Assembly: GCF_026341275.1 (NCBI RefSeq)
Contig: NZ_JAIFZO010000002.1
Span: forward strand, 5,672,118 to 5,736,117
DNA: 64,000 nt
From: Streptomyces ortus
GTDB lineage: Bacteria > Actinomycetota > Actinomycetes > Streptomycetales > Streptomycetaceae
Direction: 5' to 3'
Below the pieces are notes generated by a model, which had not been told where the DNA came from, ran no database searches, and worked only from the letters and a program-made list of their open reading frames with translations. Both the position numbers and the translations under genes were made by a program. Positions 32,243-41,735 of this stretch are shown piece after piece. Every line of letters begins with the position of its first letter. Position 1 is the stretch's first letter.

Positions 32243-32284
32243 GTAGGGCCAGGTCAGAGGAGTGATCCTCTGACCTGGCCCTAC
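32243..32284. terminator. Hairpin terminator, originally of the tRNA-Gly gene
   Basis: Perfect 19-bp arms (32243-32261 and 32266-32284) with a GTGA loop, placed just beyond the tRNA 3' fragment of attL. Before integration it would have ended the leftward tRNA-Gly transcript. It also ends the hydrolase gene. Confidence 0.8.
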
Positions 32285-32290
32285 GTCATC

Positions 32291-32335
32291 TGGAGCGGGC
32301 GACGGGAATCGAACCCGCGTAGCTAGTTTGGAAGA
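32291..32335. other. attL: direct repeat of the tRNA-Gly 3' half
   Basis: 45 bp identical to 41662-41706. The similarity continues outward for 19 bp with one mismatch (32271-32290 against 41642-41661). The rest of the tRNA is missing here, so this copy is non-functional. Confidence 0.93.
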
Positions 32336-33040: not shown

Positions 33041-33247
33041 CTACAGCTTGTCGTCGCGTGCCAGGATCAGGCTGATCGAGCCGTCTTCGAGGTTGATGCC
33101 GGGGTCAAGGTGCTCGTGGTATCCGTCCCGGAGTTCGGGGCTGGCGAGACCGGTGAGGCGTTCGGCCAGTTCCTTCAGCCCTGCGGCATTGGCCGAGACG
33201 GTAATTTCGGTGGCTGAGCCGTACACCTTGATCTTGGGTTCATCCAT
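33041..33247 (-). CDS. Small Imm32-like protein (AICE cargo)
   Basis: 68 residues: KIKVYGSATEITVSANAAGL, KELAERLTGLASP, and ending GSISLILARDDKL. The strand-helix-strand pattern resembles the Imm32 family of small predicted immunity proteins, but there is no toxin gene nearby and I hold this loosely. Base composition is lower in GC than the chromosome. It lies 99 bp from the DUF6083-like gene on the same strand. Confidence 0.6.
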   Translation of the reverse strand: MDEPKIKVYGSATEITVSANAAGLKELAERLTGLASPELRDGYHEHLDPGINLEDGSISLILARDDKL

Positions 33248-33719: not shown

Positions 33720-34232
33720 TCAGGCGTCGGGCGAGACGTAGCAAATGGCGTCAACGCTCTCGCCGGCTCCGTAGTGATGCGATGTCCTGCCGATCGCTTG
33801 CCAGCCGAGACGTTCGTACAGGCGCATGGCGGAGGTGTCCTTGGTCATCACGTCAAGGACAAGTCGCAGCCCGTGCTCACGGCCGTAGCCCATCGCAGCT
33901 CGCGTGAGTGCTTCTCCGAGGGCGTGCTTCCTGGCGGCCTTCACGACGAACAGTCGAGCCAAGACGCCGATTCGCTCTTCCGGCTCGCCGCTCTGCTGCG
34001 TCCACATCGACACGGCGTCCTCGTCCCGCGGGCTCATCACCGCCACATGCCCGACGACGGCTCCGTCCAGCTCTCCCACCCATGCGGCCATCACGTCATC
34101 GGAGCGCAACCACACCTCGGGTTGCTCCACTCCCTCGACCGGATACCCATCCGTGGCGTGCACCTCGGTCAACGCTGCGGCGGCTTCGGCAAGGTCAGAA
34201 TCTTCGAAGGGTCGGATGACCGCAGACGGCAT
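33720..34232 (-). CDS. GNAT N-acetyltransferase in the repressor operon
   Basis: 170 residues. A single GNAT domain with the acetyl-CoA binding region LARLFVVKAARKHALGEALT and the downstream MRLYERLGWQAIGRTSHHYG block. The start is ATG 34232 (MPSAVIRPFEDSDL) behind GAGGAG. It begins 13 bp after the korSA stop on the same strand, so the two are co-transcribed. The substrate is unknown. GNAT genes next to the AICE repressor are common and may act on a host molecule or be a fitness gene. Confidence 0.87.
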   Translation of the reverse strand: MPSAVIRPFEDSDLAEAAAALTEVHATDGYPVEGVEQPEVWLRSDDVMAAWVGELDGAVVGHVAVMSPRDEDAVSMWTQQSGEPEERIGVLARLFVVKAARKHALGEALTRAAMGYGREHGLRLVLDVMTKDTSAMRLYERLGWQAIGRTSHHYGAGESVDAICYVSPDA

Positions 34233-34245
34233 GGGCAACTCCTCG

Positions 34246-35019
34246 TTACTCGACGGGCAGCTCGTAGAGCAGTCCGGTTTGGTCGGCTCGGTGTACGTAG
34301 CGGGAGACCTCGAAAGGCGTCCCGTTCTGGTCGAAGCTCGTGTGCAGCACTTCAAGAACCGGAACGCCAGGCAGAAGCTCAAGAATCGCGGCTTCCTCGG
34401 GTGTGGGCATCCTGGCGCTGATTTCGTCGCGGACGCGCGTCATGACGTGTCCAAGATCCTCTAGGCGACCGTAGATGCCGTCTTTCCTGGTCTTCTGCTG
34501 CATTAGCAACGTTCCTTGTGCTTCATCCCACCGCAAGTAGGTTGAGACGACTTGCACCGGTTCGTCATCTGCGAAGTAGTGGTTTTCCCGGTGAACGACA
34601 CTCTCCTCGTCCGCGGGCACGTTCAGGCGGTCCGCGACGTCCGCCGGCGGCTTCTCGCGCGCGATGGACGGGACCTCGATCCGCGCCACCTTGCCTTGCC
34701 GCTTCGCTTCCAGCCGGAACGGGGTCAATCCGGTCTCGCGGTTCTTGAGCGAGTAGCGATCACTCCCGAAGCGGAACAGCCTCTGCGGTTCCCGTACGAA
34801 AACACCGCTGCCGTGCTTCGCGGTGACAAGCCCCTGCTCGGCGAGTATCCGAATGGCCTCACGAGCGGTGTTTCGTGCCGCGCCATGCGTCTCGGCTAGC
34901 GCGCGCTCGGACGGCAACTTGTCGCCGGGGCGCCACTTCCCAGACTCGATCTGACGTCGCAGTTCTTCGGCGATGCGACGGCTGGGTGGCTGTGGGGTCG
35001 AGGGGCGGACGGACATCAT
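34246..35019 (-). CDS. KorSA-type GntR/HutC transcriptional repressor
   Basis: 257 residues. The N-terminal GntR winged helix (WRPGDKLPSERALAETHG, EAIRILAEQGLVTAKHGSGV) is followed by a HutC-type UTRA effector domain (ETGLTPFRLEAKRQGKVARI to the end). In pSAM2 the KorSA regulator of this family silences transfer and replication. The divergent intergenic region has three identical-type palindromes that are probable binding sites, one inside the promoter of this gene. TATGCT (35031-35026) lies exactly 6 bp before ATG 35019, so the mRNA is probably leaderless. Confidence 0.9.
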   Translation of the reverse strand: MMSVRPSTPQPPSRRIAEELRRQIESGKWRPGDKLPSERALAETHGAARNTAREAIRILAEQGLVTAKHGSGVFVREPQRLFRFGSDRYSLKNRETGLTPFRLEAKRQGKVARIEVPSIAREKPPADVADRLNVPADEESVVHRENHYFADDEPVQVVSTYLRWDEAQGTLLMQQKTRKDGIYGRLEDLGHVMTRVRDEISARMPTPEEAAILELLPGVPVLEVLHTSFDQNGTPFEVSRYVHRADQTGLLYELPVE

Positions 35020-35036
35020 GTCGGCAGCATAGCAAC

Positions 35037-35109
35037 TGGCTCAAGCCACCTATTGACCCAAGGGTCCGCGTGTGCTCAACTGGCTTAAGCCAGTAAGTGG
35101 CTCAAGCCA
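35037..35109. promoter_or_regulatory. Divergent control region with three TGGCTYAAGCCA operators
   Basis: Palindromes TGGCTCAAGCCA (35037-35048), TGGCTTAAGCCA (35081-35092) and TGGCTCAAGCCA (35098-35109). The first lies in the spacer of the leftward promoter (-10 TATGCT, 35031-35026). The rightward promoter is TTGACC (35053-35058) N17 TCAACT (35076-35081), so the second operator covers its start point. The arrangement predicts that the GntR protein represses itself and the transfer/replication operon. Confidence 0.8.
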
Positions 35110-35149
35110 GTTGGCGCACCGAAAGTGCGCCTCGACTGAGGAGTGACGC

Positions 35150-35479
35150 ATGCCGTCCTTCAAGATTGATCTTTCGACTGCGGTCGTGATCGTGGCGACT
35201 GCCCCTGAGGCGAAGCTCGTCGACAAGCGCACGGGTGAGCGGGCCGTGGACCGGGATTCCGGTGCGGGTCTGTCCACGGTGGGTCTGGTGATCTCGGACG
35301 AGGGGGAGGGCAACCTCTACAAGGTCACCGTTCCGGAGACGGGTTACCCGGAGGGTCTTCAGCCGGGCTCGATCGTGCGCGTGGTGGGCCTGAAGGCGCG
35401 TGACTGGGAGAACGAGTTCAACGGCCAGAAGCGTCACGGCATCTCGTTCCGCGCGGTCGCGATCACGCCGGCGGCCTGA
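35150..35479 (+). CDS. SCO3933-family regulatory protein (first gene of the transfer operon)
   Basis: 109 residues (KIDLSTAVVIVATAPEAKLV, TVGLVISDEGEGNLYKVTVP, GLQPGSIVRVVGLKARDWEN, HGISFRAVAITP). The all-beta pattern looks like an OB-fold and matches proteins annotated as SCO3933-family regulatory proteins on actinomycete plasmids and AICEs. The role is not established; DNA binding is plausible. GAGGAG precedes ATG 35150. The FtsK-like gene begins 3 bp after its stop. Confidence 0.8.
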   Translation: MPSFKIDLSTAVVIVATAPEAKLVDKRTGERAVDRDSGAGLSTVGLVISDEGEGNLYKVTVPETGYPEGLQPGSIVRVVGLKARDWENEFNGQKRHGISFRAVAITPAA

Positions 35480-35481
35480 CC

Positions 35482-36822
35482 ATGACCGACATCGTGACGT
35501 GGTTCGAGCTGGGTGGTGCTGCCGCTGGTGCCGGCGGTCTCGGCTACGCGAAGGTACGTGCTCCTCGCGTGTACTGGTCGCTGGTGGGGATGCCGGTCAC
35601 CTGGGGCCGGTTCACCTGGACGTACCGCTCGACGATGGATGTGTGCGGGCTGACGGTGCAGCCGTCCGGCATGCGGGCCTTCATGACCCGCAACGTGGCT
35701 CGCCGTGAGGTGCGGCCGGTGGCGCCCAAGGTCCGCCGGGTCCGGGGAACCTCGACCGGTCTGCGCGTCACTCTCCGTCTGCCCGCCGGCCTGGAGCCTG
35801 CCGACATCGCCGCATCGTCCGAGCGCCTGCGCCACGCCTGGGGAGTCCGCTCGATCATCGTGGCGGAGACCAAGCCCGGTTATGTCGAACTGCGGATGAC
35901 CGGCTACGACGTCCTCAAGCGGGTCACGATGCCGCGCAAGGCCAAGCCTCGTGACCTGGTGATTCCGGTGGCGCTGCGCGAGGACGGCACGGTCTTCGAG
36001 CGGGACTACCGAAAGGTCCCCATGGCCCTGACGCTCGGCGCGAACCAGTCCGGCAAGTCGATGTATCAGCGCAACCTGATCAAGGGGCTGGCCCAGCTCC
36101 CGGTCGGATTGATCGGGATCGACTGCAAGCGCGGTGTCGAGCACAGCCGCTACGCGTCCCGGCTGTCGGCGCTGGCGACCACTGCGGACATTGCCGGGCA
36201 GTTGATCGATGTGCTGGTCACGGAGATGGAAGAGCGCTTCGACCTGCTCGCCCTGTATGGGGTCTCGGACCTGTGGGAGCTGCCGGAGCACGTGCGGCCG
36301 GTGCCCCTGGTGGTGCTGATCGATGAGGTGGCGGAACTGTTCCTGGTCACCTCCAAGAAGGATGAGCCGGCCCGCGACCGCACGGTCATGCAGCTCGTGC
36401 GCTTGGGGCAGATGGCCCGTGCGATCGGCATCTATCTGGAGGTGTGCGGGCAGCGCTTCGGATCCGACCTCGGCAGGGGCGCCACCGCGCTGCGCGCTCA
36501 GCTCACCGGCCGTGTGGTGCACCGCGTCAACGACAAGCAGACCGCCGACATGGGATTGGGCGACATCGCCCCGGACGCGGTGGTCGCGGTGACCTCGATC
36601 GCTCCGGATCGCCCCGGGGTCGCGGTGGCCGGTGACACCTCCGGCGGCTGGTCCCGTATCCGCACCCCCGAGACGACCCCGGACGAAGTAGCAGCGGTGT
36701 GCCGCGACTTCGCGCACCTCACCCCGGAGCCGCCGTTCCTGGCGCCGTTCCGACCCGTCAGCAGGGCCGTGCCGCCGATGCCGGCCGCACCGCCGCTGAT
36801 GGTCCCGCAGCAGACCCCCTGA
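35482..36822 (+). CDS. FtsK/SpoIIIE-like DNA translocase (TraSA/TraB-type)
   Basis: 446 residues. A short hydrophobic N-terminus (ELGGAAAGAGGLGYAKV) is followed by the motor domain with Walker A GANQSGKS at 186-193 and Walker B PLVVLIDEVAEL near 275-285. The sequence ends soon after the RecA-like core. In Streptomyces a single hexameric protein of this type moves double-stranded DNA between hyphae, so this is the conjugation motor of the element. It is translationally close to the upstream gene (3-bp gap). Confidence 0.92.
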   Translation: MTDIVTWFELGGAAAGAGGLGYAKVRAPRVYWSLVGMPVTWGRFTWTYRSTMDVCGLTVQPSGMRAFMTRNVARREVRPVAPKVRRVRGTSTGLRVTLRLPAGLEPADIAASSERLRHAWGVRSIIVAETKPGYVELRMTGYDVLKRVTMPRKAKPRDLVIPVALREDGTVFERDYRKVPMALTLGANQSGKSMYQRNLIKGLAQLPVGLIGIDCKRGVEHSRYASRLSALATTADIAGQLIDVLVTEMEERFDLLALYGVSDLWELPEHVRPVPLVVLIDEVAELFLVTSKKDEPARDRTVMQLVRLGQMARAIGIYLEVCGQRFGSDLGRGATALRAQLTGRVVHRVNDKQTADMGLGDIAPDAVVAVTSIAPDRPGVAVAGDTSGGWSRIRTPETTPDEVAAVCRDFAHLTPEPPFLAPFRPVSRAVPPMPAAPPLMVPQQTP

Positions 36823-36894
36823 TCCTCGCCCCACCCACCGCACGTGCGCCATGTCCCTACCCGCGCCATGCCGAAATCCGGAAGGAGATCACTC

Positions 36895-37062
36895 ATGGCC
36901 CGCAAGACCGCCAAGCCCTCCGTGAAGCCGTGCTCGCCCTGCGGTGGCACCGGAGAGGTCTCCCGGACCGTCCGTGTCGGCCGCAAGCAACGGGTCGTGG
37001 GCCAGCAGACCGGCCTGTGCCTGAGCTGCCTGGGCGCCGGCGAACTTCCCGCTGACGACTGA
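36895..37062 (+). CDS. Small protein with two CxxCxGxG zinc motifs
   Basis: 55 residues from ATG 36895, which has AAGGAG 7 nt upstream. The motifs CSPCGGTG and CLSCLGAG are the DnaJ-type zinc half-sites, here as a single pair linked by a basic stretch (TVRVGRKQRVVGQQ). It probably binds one zinc ion. It sits in the transfer operon between the translocase and SpdB-like genes, a position usually filled by spread accessory genes. Function unknown. Confidence 0.8.
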   Translation: MARKTAKPSVKPCSPCGGTGEVSRTVRVGRKQRVVGQQTGLCLSCLGAGELPADD

Positions 37063-37139
37063 ATCCCGCCGGGGACGGGGCGACCGGACACAGTTCCTCG
37101 CCCCGCCCCCGGCCCAAGCCCTGTGAAGGAGGTGAGGAC

Positions 37140-37823
37140 ATGCCCCGCTCGATCCGCGTGGACGCCGTGCTCGTACAGGCCGTCATCGCCGGCGCGCTGT
37201 CCTTCGCCCACCTGCACGACCTTGCCGACGCTGCCGGACAGACCGGCTGGAAGGCCTGGGCCTACCCGGTCTCGGTGGACCTGCTGCTCGTCGCCGCGTG
37301 GCGCCGACTCCGGACCGCCCGCCGGGACCGCTCGGCCTGGATCTGGTTCGTGATCGCCCTGGTGGCCTCGCTCGGCGCGAACATCGCCACCGCCGGACTC
37401 CTCGACCTGGAACACGTCCCCGACTGGCTGCGCATCCTCGTCGCCGGCTGGCCCGCGCTCGCCTTCCTCGGCGGCACGCTCCTGGTCCACGCCCCCGACA
37501 AGACCCCGGCCCCGCCCGAGGTGTCCACACAGCCTGTGGACACAGCCCCGGCCCCCTCGGTCGACGTCCACCGCGACGACACACCCGAGAGCGTTCCGGC
37601 CCCGGTCACTGCCCCAGTGCCCGAACTCGACCCCGCACCCGCGCCCCCTCCGGCCGACGACCGGCCTGCGGTACCGGCCGCGCTGCTGGACCACGCACGA
37701 AAGCTCGCAGAGACGCACCGTGCCTCGACCGGCTCCCCGATGCCTGCCGAGGTGCTGTCGGCCCGACTCCAACTGCCCGCACCGATGACCAGCGCCATCG
37801 CCGCAGAACTCCAACTCACCTGA
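37140..37823 (+). CDS. DUF2637 membrane protein (SpdB-like)
   Basis: 227 residues. The N-terminal half has about four hydrophobic helices (AVIAGALSFAHLHDLAD, WAYPVSVDLLLVAAWRRL, WFVIALVASLGANIATAG, ILVAGWPALAFLGGTLLVH), the DUF2637 pattern. A long Pro/Ala/Asp-rich linker then leads to a small helical domain (LLDHARKLAETHRASTGSPM). SpdB proteins help plasmid spread along the recipient mycelium and may form channels in septal cross-walls. GGAGG precedes the ATG. Confidence 0.88.
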   Translation: MPRSIRVDAVLVQAVIAGALSFAHLHDLADAAGQTGWKAWAYPVSVDLLLVAAWRRLRTARRDRSAWIWFVIALVASLGANIATAGLLDLEHVPDWLRILVAGWPALAFLGGTLLVHAPDKTPAPPEVSTQPVDTAPAPSVDVHRDDTPESVPAPVTAPVPELDPAPAPPPADDRPAVPAALLDHARKLAETHRASTGSPMPAEVLSARLQLPAPMTSAIAAELQLT

Positions 37824-37839
37824 CAGGAGGTCTCATCCC

Positions 37840-38022
37840 GTGCGCCCGAACCGCTTTTACGACGTGATCCGCATCGGTCCCGTCAAGGTCGGCACCTTCA
37901 ACAACGGACGCGGCCAGACCCGCCACACCGCCGCCTGCACCGCCCCCGCCTGCGGGTTCTCCACCGAGCACCGCGACCGCTCGGCTGCCGAACTCGCCGC
38001 CCGTACCCACCGCTGCATCTGA
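37840..38022 (+). CDS. Mobile element transfer protein (SpdA-like, zinc-finger)
   Basis: 60 residues from GTG 37840 with AGGAGG upstream. It begins RPNRFYDVIRIGPVKVGTFN and has AACTAPACGFSTEHRDRS followed by ARTHRCI, so two Cys pairs or Cys/His form a probable zinc finger. It matches short proteins annotated as mobile element transfer proteins on Streptomyces AICEs. It follows the DUF2637 gene by 16 bp. Confidence 0.82.
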   Translation: MRPNRFYDVIRIGPVKVGTFNNGRGQTRHTAACTAPACGFSTEHRDRSAAELAARTHRCI

Positions 38023-38037
38023 GAGGAGGAGACCGCC

Positions 38038-38313
38038 ATGCAGCTCCCAGAGGACCAGATGCGCGCCGGTCACATCCCCGCCGACCTGTACCGGCAGATC
38101 CCGCCCGGCACGGATGTGCGCAGGGTCGTGATCGTCCAAGAGGCTCCGCGCTCCTACACGGGTCCGATCGTCCTGACCCTGGTCGTGGCCGCCGGGTCCG
38201 TCGCGGTGCTGCTGGTCATCGCCTTCGTCGTCCAGGTCATCGCCGGCGCGGCCGTCGCCATCCTGTCGGCCACCGGCGGACTCACCTACACGATCAACCG
38301 CTACCGCAAGTAA
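38038..38313 (+). CDS. SpdD-like spread membrane protein
   Basis: 91 residues. A soluble N-terminus (LPEDQMRAGHIPADLYRQIP) is followed by two closely spaced hydrophobic helices (IVLTLVVAAGSVAVLLVIAF, VIAGAAVAILSATGGL) and a basic end NRYRK. This matches SpdD of pSAM2-type elements, involved in intramycelial spread. GAGGAG lies before ATG 38038. It is 15 bp downstream of the SpdA-like gene. Confidence 0.82.
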   Translation: MQLPEDQMRAGHIPADLYRQIPPGTDVRRVVIVQEAPRSYTGPIVLTLVVAAGSVAVLLVIAFVVQVIAGAAVAILSATGGLTYTINRYRK

Positions 38314-38404
38314 CCCTCCGGGGCGGCCTCTACCGCCAAGTATCCGCCGCCCCGGACGGCTGCACCTCTTCCCGATCTTCCGATCCGAAAGGGCTCCGTC
38401 CATC

Positions 38405-38584
38405 ATGCCTGCCTCCAACTCGAACCGTCCGATCTGCCGTGACTGCGGCGGCTTCCCTGTCGTCTCGATCACTACCGGCGCCCGTCACCGCGACGGCTCC
38501 CGCGTCCTCCTGCGCGCCGTCTGCCGGGCCTGCAACGGCATCGGTCACCCCACCCCCGCTGCCGCTCTCTCCGCCCGCAGGTGA
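38405..38584 (+). CDS. Very small zinc-ribbon protein (59 aa)
   Basis: A 59-codon gene: MPASNSNRPICRDCGGFPVV, then SITTGARHRDGSRVLL, and RAVCRACNGIGHP near the end. CRDCGG and CRACNGIG make a two-knuckle zinc ribbon, the second of CxxCxGxG type like the 55-residue protein upstream. AAAGGG lies about 10 nt before the ATG. Its stop overlaps a possible GTG start of the next gene. Codon use fits its neighbours. Function unknown. Confidence 0.7.
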   Translation: MPASNSNRPICRDCGGFPVVSITTGARHRDGSRVLLRAVCRACNGIGHPTPAAALSARR

Positions 38585-38589
38585 CCGCC

Positions 38590-38835
38590 ATGGGATTCCT
38601 GAACTGGAACTCCGGCGAGCACTTCGACCACCGCGGCGACTGCCCGTGCACCCAGTGCGGCAAGCCCACCCCGCTGCGCTCCCACGACGGAGAGTCCGTC
38701 CACAAGGTCTGTGCCGAGGACTGGAACGACCGCACCCCCACCGCACCTCGCTTCGAGCACGAGGGCCGCGACCTCGGCACCGCCCGCTACCACTCCGACC
38801 CGCCGCGCAAGAGCCGCAAGGACGGTGCTCGATGA
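38590..38835 (+). CDS. Small Cys-containing protein before rep
   Basis: 81 residues from ATG 38590 (MGFLNWNSGEHFDHRGDCPC). A GTG at 38581 that overlaps the previous stop would add three residues and allow coupled translation. CPCTQCGKPT and a later VHKVCAEDW give a likely metal site; the tail is basic. Its stop overlaps the rep start (ATGA at 38832-38835), so it is translated together with the replication gene. Function unknown. Confidence 0.72.
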   Translation: MGFLNWNSGEHFDHRGDCPCTQCGKPTPLRSHDGESVHKVCAEDWNDRTPTAPRFEHEGRDLGTARYHSDPPRKSRKDGAR

Positions 38836-40235
38836 CCGACACCGCCACCCTGGCGGGTCTCGACCCGGCCACCCTCACCGATGTGCTGAGGGTGGCCGGC
38901 GCCGATGATTTCGACCGCTGGCACGAACAGATCAAGCGCACGGGCGGCTGCTCCGACCCGATCCGCCTCACCGGCGCCACGAAGACCATCGACCCGACCA
39001 CGAAAACCGTCCTGCACGCCTACTCGACCGAGCACGAGCCGGGCGGCATGCTCCGCATCGCCTGCGGCAACCGCCGCGCCTCGCGCTGCCCGGCCTGCGC
39101 CTGGACCTACGCCGGCGACACCTACCACCTCATCCGCGCCGGGCTCGTCGGTGACCCGGCCAAGGGCACCCCGCACACCGTGCGCGAGCACCCCCGCGTC
39201 TTCGCCACCCTCACCGCACCCTCGTTCGGACCCGTCCACAACCGGCCCGGCAACCGGCCGTGCCGCTGCGGGGTCCGGCACGAGGAAGAAAACCCAGTAT
39301 TGGGTACGCCTGTTGCCCCTGAGACGTACGACTACGCGGGCGCGGTGCTGTGGAACAACCACGCCTCCGACCTGTGGCGCTACTTCACGATCTACCTCCG
39401 CCGCGAGATCGCCAAGCGGGCCGGCCTCACCCAGAAGGACGCCCGCGAACAGTCCCGGCTGTCCTTCGGGAAGGTCGCGGAGTACCAGAAGCGCGGTGCC
39501 GTCCACTTCCACGCGGTGATCCGCTTCGACGGACCGGACGGGCCCGACTCCCCGCCCCCGCACTGGGCCGGCATCGGCCTGCTCACGGACGCCATCCATG
39601 CCGCTGCCGCTCGAGTAGCGGTCGACGTCGCACCCGCGGGGGACCAACCCGCTCGCACCCTGCGGTGGGGCACACAGCTCGACGTCCAGCCGATCGGCGC
39701 GTTCGGCAACGGCGAAGACCTCACGGAACAGGCCGTTGCCTCCTACGTCGCCAAATACGCCACGAAGGCGGCAGAGACGACCGGCACCGTCGACCGCCGG
39801 GTCGGCAACAAAGAGGCGCTGATCCTGCTCGGCGTGCCCGACCACCCCCGCCGGCTGATTGAAGCGTGCCTAGACCTCCACGCGCTCTACCCGGAACGCA
39901 AGCTCCGCGACTGGGCTCACATGCTCGGCTTCCGCGGCCACTTCTCCACGAAGTCCCGCCGCTACTCGACCACCCTCGGCGCCCTCCGACAGGCCCGTGC
40001 CGACTACCGCGCGGCCCAGCAACGCGCCTCCCTCGGCCTGCCCGACCCCGACGACCACCCGGAGGCAACCACCCTCGTGCTCTCCCACTGGACCTACGCA
40101 GGCCACGGCTACACCCCCGGCGAATCCTGGTTCGCAGCCAACATCCGCCGGGACATCCAACAGAACCGCGAGACCGCACGTGAAGCTCTGCAAGATTCCA
40201 ACGCCCAGGGGGAGGACGCGTCATGGATCGGCTGA
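38832..40235 (+). CDS. RepSA-type HUH rolling-circle replication initiator
   Basis: 467 residues. A zinc-ribbon-like segment (CGNRRASRCPACAWTYAGDT) is followed by the HUH motif HFH at 225-227 (GAVHFHAVIRF) and a tyrosine motif (VASYVAKYATKAAE) near 300. This is the RepSA family that nicks the double-strand origin of pSAM2-like elements after excision. The start is the ATG at 38832, overlapping the previous stop; the open frame further upstream is not coding. The last 13 bp overlap the excisionase gene. Confidence 0.9.
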   Translation: MTDTATLAGLDPATLTDVLRVAGADDFDRWHEQIKRTGGCSDPIRLTGATKTIDPTTKTVLHAYSTEHEPGGMLRIACGNRRASRCPACAWTYAGDTYHLIRAGLVGDPAKGTPHTVREHPRVFATLTAPSFGPVHNRPGNRPCRCGVRHEEENPVLGTPVAPETYDYAGAVLWNNHASDLWRYFTIYLRREIAKRAGLTQKDAREQSRLSFGKVAEYQKRGAVHFHAVIRFDGPDGPDSPPPHWAGIGLLTDAIHAAAARVAVDVAPAGDQPARTLRWGTQLDVQPIGAFGNGEDLTEQAVASYVAKYATKAAETTGTVDRRVGNKEALILLGVPDHPRRLIEACLDLHALYPERKLRDWAHMLGFRGHFSTKSRRYSTTLGALRQARADYRAAQQRASLGLPDPDDHPEATTLVLSHWTYAGHGYTPGESWFAANIRRDIQQNRETAREALQDSNAQGEDASWIG

Positions 40236-40429
40236 TGGACGTGGAGCAAGTCGCGGAACGGTTGGGAACGACGGTGCGCTTCCCTCGGCGGCTGATCGAG
40301 GAACGGCGTATCGAGTACGTGAAGGTCGGGCGGCACGTTCGCATACGAGAGAGCGTCGTAGAGGCGTACATGGCGGCCAACACGGTGCAACCCCGCCGCT
40401 CCTCGACGGCTCTGCGGGCGGTCGCCTGA
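40223..40429 (+). CDS. xis: Excisionase (Xis), MerR/HTH_17-like
   Basis: 68 residues of the small winged-helix type: MDVEQVAERLGTTVRFPRRL, IEERRIEYVKVGRHVRIRES, VVEAYMAANT. Such proteins bend DNA at att and direct the integrase toward excision. It overlaps the rep 3' end by 13 bp, and its stop overlaps the integrase start (TGATG at 40427-40431), so rep, xis and int are translationally coupled. Confidence 0.9.
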   Translation: MDRLMDVEQVAERLGTTVRFPRRLIEERRIEYVKVGRHVRIRESVVEAYMAANTVQPRRSSTALRAVA

Positions 40430-41595
40430 TGGCCGGGCGTCGACAGTTCGGCCGTGTCCGCAAGCTCCCGTCCGGGCGCTACCAGGCCCGTTACGCCGGT
40501 CCTGACGGACAGCTCCGCCCGGCCCCGGAGACCTTCCGCACGAAGCGGGACGCGGATGACTGGCTGGCCGACAAGCAGACGGAGCTACGCCGTGGGGACT
40601 GGCACGACCCGGACGCGGGAAAGGTGGAGTTCGGTCCGTACGCCGCTGCCTGGATCATGGAACGGGAGCTGACCACGACCACCCGGCAGCTCTACCGCTC
40701 CCTCCTGCGGCACCACCTCGAACCGACCTTCGGGGCGGTCAACGTCGCGGACATCTCGCCCCCGTTCGTGCGACGTTGGCGGGCCGAGAAACTCGCTGCC
40801 GGCACCGGCCCGACCACGGTGGCCAAGGCGTACGCCCTGCTGCGCGCGATCCTGGGCACCGCCGTGGCCGACCAGATGATCAGGCGCAACCCGTGCACGA
40901 TCAAGGGCGCGAGCACCGTGCACACCCCGGAGCGGCCCACCGCCACCGTGCAGGAGGTCTACGCCCTGGCGGACGCGATCCAGCCTCGCTACCGGGCGCT
41001 CGTGCTCATGGCCGGCTTCCTGGGCCTGCGCTGGGGAGAGCTGATCGGTCTGCATCGCCGTGACGTGGATCTCGACCACGGAGCCGTACGCGTCCGCCGT
41101 GCCGTTGCCGAGCTGAACAACGGACAGCGCGAGATCAAGGCGCCCAAGAGCGCTGCGGGCAAACGCACTGTGGCCATTCCGTCCGCGATCATCCCGGACA
41201 TCCGCGTCCACCTGGCCGTGTACGCCGAACACGGAGCTGATGGCCGGGTCTTCATCGGCGCCAAGAAGGCGACTCCGCGGCGGAACCACTTCAATCGGCT
41301 GTGGCACAAGGCGTGCTCGGACGCCGACGTCAAGGGCCTGCACTTCCACGATCTCCGGCACACGGGCAACACCCTTGCCGCGTCGACCGGCGCGAGCACG
41401 CGAGAGCTGATGTCCCGGATGGGCCACAGCACCGCCCGCGCGGCACTGATCTATCAGCACGCGAGCGTCGACCGTGACCGGCTGATCGCCGATGCGGTGA
41501 GCGGCCTTGTCGACAAGAGCCGAAAGAAGACTCGGAAGGCCAAGAAGAAGCAAGATCGAAAGTCGAAGGGGCACGCGGGGGACACGTCGGACTGA
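40429..41595 (+). CDS. int: Site-specific tyrosine recombinase (integrase)
   Basis: 388 residues. An AP2-like arm-binding N-terminus (GRVRKLPSGRYQARYAGPDG) and a SAM-like core-binding domain precede the catalytic domain with R201 (LGLRWGELIGL), H307 and R310 (HDLRHTG), H333 (MGHS) and nucleophile Y342 (YQHAS). All catalytic residues are present. It would recombine attP with the tRNA-Gly gene. The basic tail is Lys/Arg-rich. The stop lies 66 bp from the attR core. Confidence 0.95.
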   Translation: MAGRRQFGRVRKLPSGRYQARYAGPDGQLRPAPETFRTKRDADDWLADKQTELRRGDWHDPDAGKVEFGPYAAAWIMERELTTTTRQLYRSLLRHHLEPTFGAVNVADISPPFVRRWRAEKLAAGTGPTTVAKAYALLRAILGTAVADQMIRRNPCTIKGASTVHTPERPTATVQEVYALADAIQPRYRALVLMAGFLGLRWGELIGLHRRDVDLDHGAVRVRRAVAELNNGQREIKAPKSAAGKRTVAIPSAIIPDIRVHLAVYAEHGADGRVFIGAKKATPRRNHFNRLWHKACSDADVKGLHFHDLRHTGNTLAASTGASTRELMSRMGHSTARAALIYQHASVDRDRLIADAVSGLVDKSRKKTRKAKKKQDRKSKGHAGDTSD

Positions 41596-41617: not shown

Positions 41618-41652
41618 GGGCCAGGCGGAGGGATTTACCTCTGACCTGGCCC
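41618..41652. terminator. Element-borne hairpin replacing the tRNA terminator
   Basis: Arms 41618-41631 and 41638-41652 pair over 8 + 4 bp with a small internal loop. The right arm is identical to the chromosomal terminator at attL. It now lies just downstream of the reconstituted tRNA-Gly gene and also ends int. Confidence 0.75.
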
Positions 41653-41661
41653 TACGTCATT

Positions 41662-41706
41662 TGGAGCGGGCGACGGGAATCGAACCCGCGTAGCTAGTTT
41701 GGAAGA
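41662..41706. other. attR: 45-bp core within the intact tRNA-Gly gene
   Basis: Identical to attL (32291-32335). Here it is continuous with the 5' half of the tRNA, so the gene was restored on integration. The core spans the CCA end to the anticodon loop. Confidence 0.93.
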
Positions 41707-41735
41707 CTAGTGCTCTACCATTGAGCTACGCCCGC
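41662..41735 (-). tRNA. tRNA-Gly(UCC)
   Basis: 74 nt including an encoded CCA (41664-41662). The acceptor stem GCGGGCG pairs with CGCCCGC. The D-arm is GCTC...GAGC, the anticodon stem CTAGT/ACTAG carries loop CTTCCAA with anticodon TCC, and the T-arm has TTCGATT. It reads GGA/GGG codons. It is the integration target of the adjacent element. Confidence 0.97.

Follow-up and report, generated by a model that had tools for sequence, protein, structure and literature searches.

The window, the whole 64,000-nucleotide stretch of DNA that was analysed, contains a pSAM2-type AICE of 9.4 kb sited in a tRNA-Gly gene. A RepSA initiator, an FtsK-type Tra, Xis, and a tyrosine integrase are present together in this one element, which places it among the AICEs. 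Integration into a tRNA gene is evident from a 69-bp direct repeat, at 32267 and 41638, that overlaps tRNA-Gly. The features of the element are listed here by coordinates and strand.

32267..32335, no strand: left attachment-site copy, 69-bp direct repeat, 99% identity to 41638-41706
34246..35019, minus: GntR/UTRA regulator, KorSA/SCO3932-like (Pfam GntR 4.7e-22, UTRA 1.2e-30)
35150..35479, plus: Pra/SCO3933 family regulator (NF051478, 5.1e-42)
35482..36822, plus: FtsK/SpoIIIE-type transfer protein, TraSA-like (PF01580, 3.2e-26)
36895..37062, plus: ZnA, 55-aa half-DnaJ-type predicted zinc protein, C-x2-C-x-G-x-G ... C-x2-C-x-G-x-G (DnaJ_CXXCXGXG 4e-5, below the Pfam cut-off)
37140..37823, plus: DUF2637 membrane protein in the SpdA position (PF10935, 1.3e-24)
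37840..38022, plus: SpdB, 60 aa, C-x4-C ... H-x-C (PF05122, 1.5e-29, 102.5 bits vs a cut-off of 25)
38038..38313, plus: 91-aa membrane-type protein, end of the spd block (no family match; conserved in 29 loci)
38314..38359, plus: SL hairpin, apical loop CGCCAA at 38334-38339 (covariation; 75.2 bits with covariance model R1)
38405..38584, plus: ZnB, 59-aa half-DnaJ-type predicted zinc protein, first gene 3' of SL (C11, C14, C40, C43, and G45 invariant)
38581..38835, plus: ZnC, C-x2-C-x14-H-x2-C, 84 aa from GTG 38581 or 81 aa from ATG 38590 (C20, C23, H38, and C41 invariant; no family)
38832..40235, plus: RepSA replication initiator (NF041486, 4.2e-247)
40223..40429, plus: excisionase, Xis (TIGR01764, 5.4e-15)
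40420..41595, plus: tyrosine integrase (PF00589, 1.6e-17)
41638..41706, no strand: right attachment-site copy, overlaps tRNA-Gly(tcc) at 41662-41735

The initial annotation had singled out four ORFs of 55, 60, 59, and 81 aa, and these are present at 36895-37062, 37840-38022, 38405-38584, and 38590-38835. As it described, they alternate with membrane proteins (DUF2637 at 37140-37823 and the 91-aa membrane-type protein at 38038-38313), and the last small gene overlaps rep by ATGA, with the rep ATG at 38832. Paired CxxC motifs had been ascribed to all four proteins. This is correct for the 55- and 59-aa proteins but not for the 60-aa protein, which has C-x4-C ... H-x-C, or the 81-aa protein, which has C-x2-C-x14-H-x2-C. 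Of the CxxCxGxG motif ascribed to both the 55- and the 59-aa protein, the former has two complete copies and the latter one (CRDCGGF / CRACNGIG).

Two genes near the AICE's left end may be cargo, one (33044-33247, minus strand) for an orphan Imm32-type immunity protein (3.1e-15) and one (33723-34229, minus strand) for a GNAT acetyltransferase. The gap between ZnA and DUF2637 (37068-37125) contains a GC-rich inverted repeat, CCGGGGACGGGGCGA...TCGCCCCGCCCCCGG, seen by eye. A simple scan of the gene strand from 34900 to 38900 returned no sigma-70 promoter or T-run terminator. Elsewhere in this genome RepSA has further matches, among them C2:4367689-4368927 with its own ZnB homolog, and RepSA was found in 178 of 199 Streptomyces genomes.

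Conservation and family relations of the small proteins

Using iterated profile searches, we compared the locus with about 100 RepSA-anchored stretches from other genomes and with loci found with ZnB. The RepSA-anchored loci are mostly best-scoring matches, one per genome, so proportions among them are not unbiased; across loci L041-L139, ZnB occurs in 30, SpdB is present in all 30 of these, and ZnA (13 loci) and ZnC (8 loci) fall entirely within the 30. The order is constant: Pra, Tra, ZnA, DUF2637, SpdB, membrane protein, ZnB, ZnC, Rep, and Xis. ZnA keeps its place between Tra and DUF2637 even in three RepSA elements from another family of the order.

The four small genes are real and conserved. 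Every homolog counted in the four families has the ligand pattern (22/22, 68/68, 47/47, and 15/15), which is more than chance would give, as the pattern occurs in 8 of the 194 other small ORFs found in this interval in related elements. The invariant residues are C13, C16, C42, and C45 in ZnA (n = 26 homologs), the C-x4-C...H-x-C ligands in SpdB (n = 34), C11, C14, C40, C43, and G45 in ZnB (56 homologs, with identity down to 34%), and C20, C23, H38, and C41 in ZnC (n = 16). From these invariant Cys and His ligands, we infer that ZnA, ZnB, ZnC, and SpdB bind zinc. Gene order and ligand residues are thus kept across Streptomyces elements, and the lack of conservation that the initial annotation had named as fatal to its proposal is not what we found.

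The ratio pN/pS is 0.55 for ZnA, 0.56 for ZnC, and 0.56 for SpdB, and the ratios are higher in shifted frames. For ZnB, the value of 0.89 is not separable from shifted frames and is uninformative. Four-fold sites are very C-biased in both ZnB and SpdB, reaching 78% C in ZnB, and this strong bias toward C-ending codons may be the cause. We considered an overlapping constraint inside ZnB as a source of its low synonymous divergence; none is needed, since with four-fold sites at 78% C, like SpdB, the expected divergence is low.

ZnB was found in 109 of 296 Streptomyces genomes. Beyond Streptomyces, a search of 296 phylum genomes gave six weak matches only, which we take to be unrelated: five are stretches of 28-30 residues in much longer frames, and one contains three stop codons. 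The 59-aa gene had been thought easy for annotation to miss, but its homologs on two plasmids are annotated as hypothetical proteins in the records checked.

The name "zinc knuckle" is wrong for this group, as ZnA and ZnB carry DnaJ-like halves, the 60-aa protein belongs to the known SpdB family (PF05122, over the Pfam cut-off), and ZnC is without a relative. Window ZnA scores 24.2 bits and window ZnB 14.6 bits against PF00684, both under the Pfam cut-off of 32.7. Weak contact with the same model at E values up to 0.1 is made by 25 of 26 ZnA and 54 of 56 ZnB members. DnaJ has four CxxCxGxG repeats, whereas ZnA has two and ZnB one and a half. The profiles of ZnA and ZnB share one 17-column CxxCxGxG half and nothing more. 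ZnC matches no known family, and its comparison with SpdB gave an hhalign probability of 0.2%. A common origin of all four small proteins is unsupported by these profile comparisons.

The nearest solved or curated relatives of ZnA and ZnB by sequence, all weak, are DnaJ, anti-TRAP, and phage Q antiterminators, raising the idea that both proteins regulate transcription in the way of anti-TRAP or Q antiterminators, with the element's own promoters or RNA polymerase as the target. Among solved structures, ZnA matches DnaJ at 1.1e-4, and every other match is marginal. Anti-TRAP (PF15777) is matched at E values up to 0.1 by 16 of 26 ZnA members (best 3.6e-4) and 36 of 56 ZnB members (best 1.8e-3), with window ZnA and window ZnB not among the matches listed. 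We consider such regulators quite unlikely, as no member does better than 3.6e-4 against the anti-TRAP family, the Q matches among solved structures are 0.38 or worse, and the likeness is limited to the CxxCxGxG halves.

A conserved hairpin ahead of the replication genes

The membrane protein and ZnB are separated by 91 nt (38314-38404), and in this gap lies a hairpin, SL, which is present in all ZnB elements with a readable gap. Both sides of its outer stem and 3-bp apical stem change together at 10 of 16 pairs. The covariation score is 0.315, compared with 0.118 for shuffled alignments (0/500) and at most 0.085 for slid partners, and it stays at 0.314 on a trimmed set. The loop CGCCAA is invariant in the alignment, whose members were picked by a pattern containing CGCCAA. 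The RNA fold of the window copy has a z of -3.8, and the DNA fold of SL has a z of -2.5. Rfam covariance models had no match at 38314-38359 up to an E value of 5, and a literature search found no described RNA motif at this place.

With the covariance model, the hairpin was found in 66 of 101 Streptomyces genomes (94 matches), while none of the other genera in a phylum sample of 149 genomes had it. Of the 94 matches, 47 adjoin ZnB, 40 lie before rep, and 2 are second copies before another small gene; of the 5 others, 3 look false, resembling ordinary GC-rich terminators. Counted from the gene, 44 of 47 ZnB genes checked have the hairpin upstream. A strict scan of the element loci for the CGCCAA hairpin gave 47 instances before ZnB, 2 before pra, and none elsewhere, compared with 0-1 for each permuted hexamer. 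A looser look brings the elements with a copy before pra to three: L006, L011, and L091 have a CGCCAA-loop hairpin with a 3-bp apical stem about 60 nt before pra. The strict pattern is absent from RepSA elements lacking SpdB apart from two exceptions, L110, which is truncated, and L056, where a chance-type match falls within rep. In the SpdB elements found without a ZnB gene, the hairpin is directly before rep. A linear plasmid with a different transfer system has the hairpin and a ZnB homolog, and neither RepSA nor SpdB is detectable on it.

The position is tightly kept: the preceding stop codon is 3-8 nt away, and the distance to the ZnB start is 42-66 nt with a median of 48. SL thus shows both marks of a structured leader, compensatory base changes and a fixed place before start codons. 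The main rival to this reading is that SL is a DNA element, either a single-strand origin or the double-strand origin of RepSA, in which case the CGCCAA loop would hold the nick site. On this view, ZnB and ZnC were inserted between origin and rep, and may help Rep at the origin. An origin fits a hairpin that adjoins rep in ZnB-carrying and ZnB-lacking elements alike, but not the near-constant spacing to a start codon or the copies before pra. The hairpin folds as single-stranded DNA, and its conserved one-strand loop is in keeping with rolling-circle origins; however, it is doubled in the same orientation in L117 and L177 (the second L117 copy is before a 67-aa ORF), and two such copies should split a rolling-circle replicon. 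Another RepSA clade, of the DUF2637-rep type (L045, L057, L078, L084, L107, and relatives), has its own, unrelated strong hairpin, GCCCCGAGCAGC...GCTGCTCGGGGC, shortly before rep, which also suits an origin, while the linear plasmid pairs SL with ZnB without detectable RepSA. A RepSA nick site was not found in our literature search. We regard an origin as somewhat unlikely, and favor an mRNA leader because the hairpin precedes several different start codons, doubles within elements, and travels with ZnB.

At the rep junction itself, all 8 elements counted with ZnC immediately ahead of rep have the -4 ATGA overlap. In several SpdB elements without ZnB (L090, L103, L106, L120, L133, L138, and L087), rep appears to be read from an ATC or ATT 3' of the hairpin, just after a good ribosome-binding site (GAAGGAGAA..CATCATCACC) and with no ATG or GTG there; this is possibly a weak start codon limiting RepSA. 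Other genes also occur near this junction. A different RepSA clade (L059:6186 and L073:5897, rep strand) has an unrelated ORF of 35-37 aa, CPxC...CRCCRGxG, shortly before rep. L005, L023, L075, and about 12 other loci have, just before rep, a further small family (62-73 aa) that combines C-x-C or C-x2-C with a tail conserved as HGPAH, and this is another candidate metal protein of the rep block. A GGDEF-motif protein of about 182 aa is inserted before the hairpin in L033, L068, L076, L081, L089, and L137, and a C5-methylase-like gene before rep in L061, L075, L079, and L092.

A two-block reading and its relation to known systems

The initial annotation had suggested that the four proteins may work together as adaptors, providing a link between RepSA, the FtsK-like translocase, and the Spd channels. 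All four do lie between tra and rep and are conserved there. However, they are not one set, because they fall into at least three unrelated families and the conserved hairpin parts the tra/spd block from the rep block. The small zinc-type proteins are accessories and not core joints of the machinery, since many elements with tra, spd, and rep have no ZnA, and the SpdB elements in which rep comes straight after the hairpin have no ZnB. Some elements with tra, spd, and rep lack ZnC as well, and the ZnB-hairpin pair also occurs on a plasmid without these partners. We find the adaptor proposal improbable. Still less probable is that the small genes are passengers or cargo, for example in counter-defence, with no role in transfer or replication. 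Their patchy presence and the other inserts at the same places (the GGDEF-type protein and the DNA C5-methylase) would agree with cargo, but their constant position over divergent elements, the ATGA coupling, and the association with the hairpin do not. PADLOC gave no match, which counts against a defence function.

Starting from the genes and their order, the conserved ligands, the covarying hairpin in its fixed place, and the overlap with rep, we tentatively prefer a two-block AICE with SL as an mRNA leader and ZnB and ZnC acting on replication, and give this a little less than an even chance. Block 1, tra-ZnA-DUF2637-SpdB-91-aa membrane protein, would serve transfer and spread, with ZnA and SpdB as its predicted small metal-binding accessories. 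Block 2, SL hairpin-ZnB-ZnC-repSA-xis-int, would serve replication and excision. In the mRNA, SL would be a leader limiting or permitting expression of the replication block; we infer this action at the RNA level, its direction, and any binding partner from sequence. ZnB, as the first product of the block, and ZnC, whose stop overlaps the rep start, may act on replication. A small zinc-folded protein could regulate either RepSA or the hairpin-led transcript, with anti-TRAP and pIJ101 SpdA2 as models. Neither is needed for RepSA, because many elements are without ZnB or ZnC. The rep, xis, and int genes of pSAM2 make up one operon, which Pra switches on and which is silenced through KorSA (PMC8584621, PMC3218068), and therefore a leader at the head of the block would be a natural control point. 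The hairpin probably controls when the element copies itself.

We hypothesize that ZnB binds its neighboring hairpin. In its fullest form, which is rather unlikely, the hairpin and ZnB would be a portable autoregulatory pair, in which ZnB would recognize the CGCCAA hairpin of its own leader, and in some elements that of the pra leader, thereby timing the excision and replication of an integrated element. The pair would have been carried to the linear plasmid with its unrelated replication system.

Elements of the pSAM2 type are common in Streptomyces, and their switch from the integrated to the replicating state is poorly known beyond KorSA and Pra. A hairpin heading the replication block, with a small zinc-type protein as the usual first gene, offers a compact and testable control point, and such a hairpin-led control point is not described in the literature we found. 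The element studied here has the same kinds of genes in the same order as pSAM2-type AICEs, to which we liken it on that ground (GntR, Pra, FtsK-type Tra, DUF2637, SpdB, RepSA, Xis, and Int), and the same tRNA integration; it differs in that ZnB, joined in some elements by ZnC, separates the hairpin from rep. The 60-aa protein belongs clearly to SpdB PF05122, with nothing notable different and with C-x4-C...H-x-C seen in the alignment. ZnA and ZnB have CxxC(xGxG) halves that resemble those of the DnaJ zinc domain (PF00684) and may resemble anti-TRAP (PF15777). They have two halves rather than four, with about 25 residues between them, no J domain, and window scores below the cut-off, and we do not file them as members. 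In function, the closest precedent for a small zinc-type protein that works on a dyad nearby is SpdA2 of pIJ101. This plasmid ORF, small and overlooked, has a zinc-finger motif; SpdA2 binds a palindrome in its own gene and affects stability, not spread (PMC4170104), and it is by this description that we liken it to ZnB.
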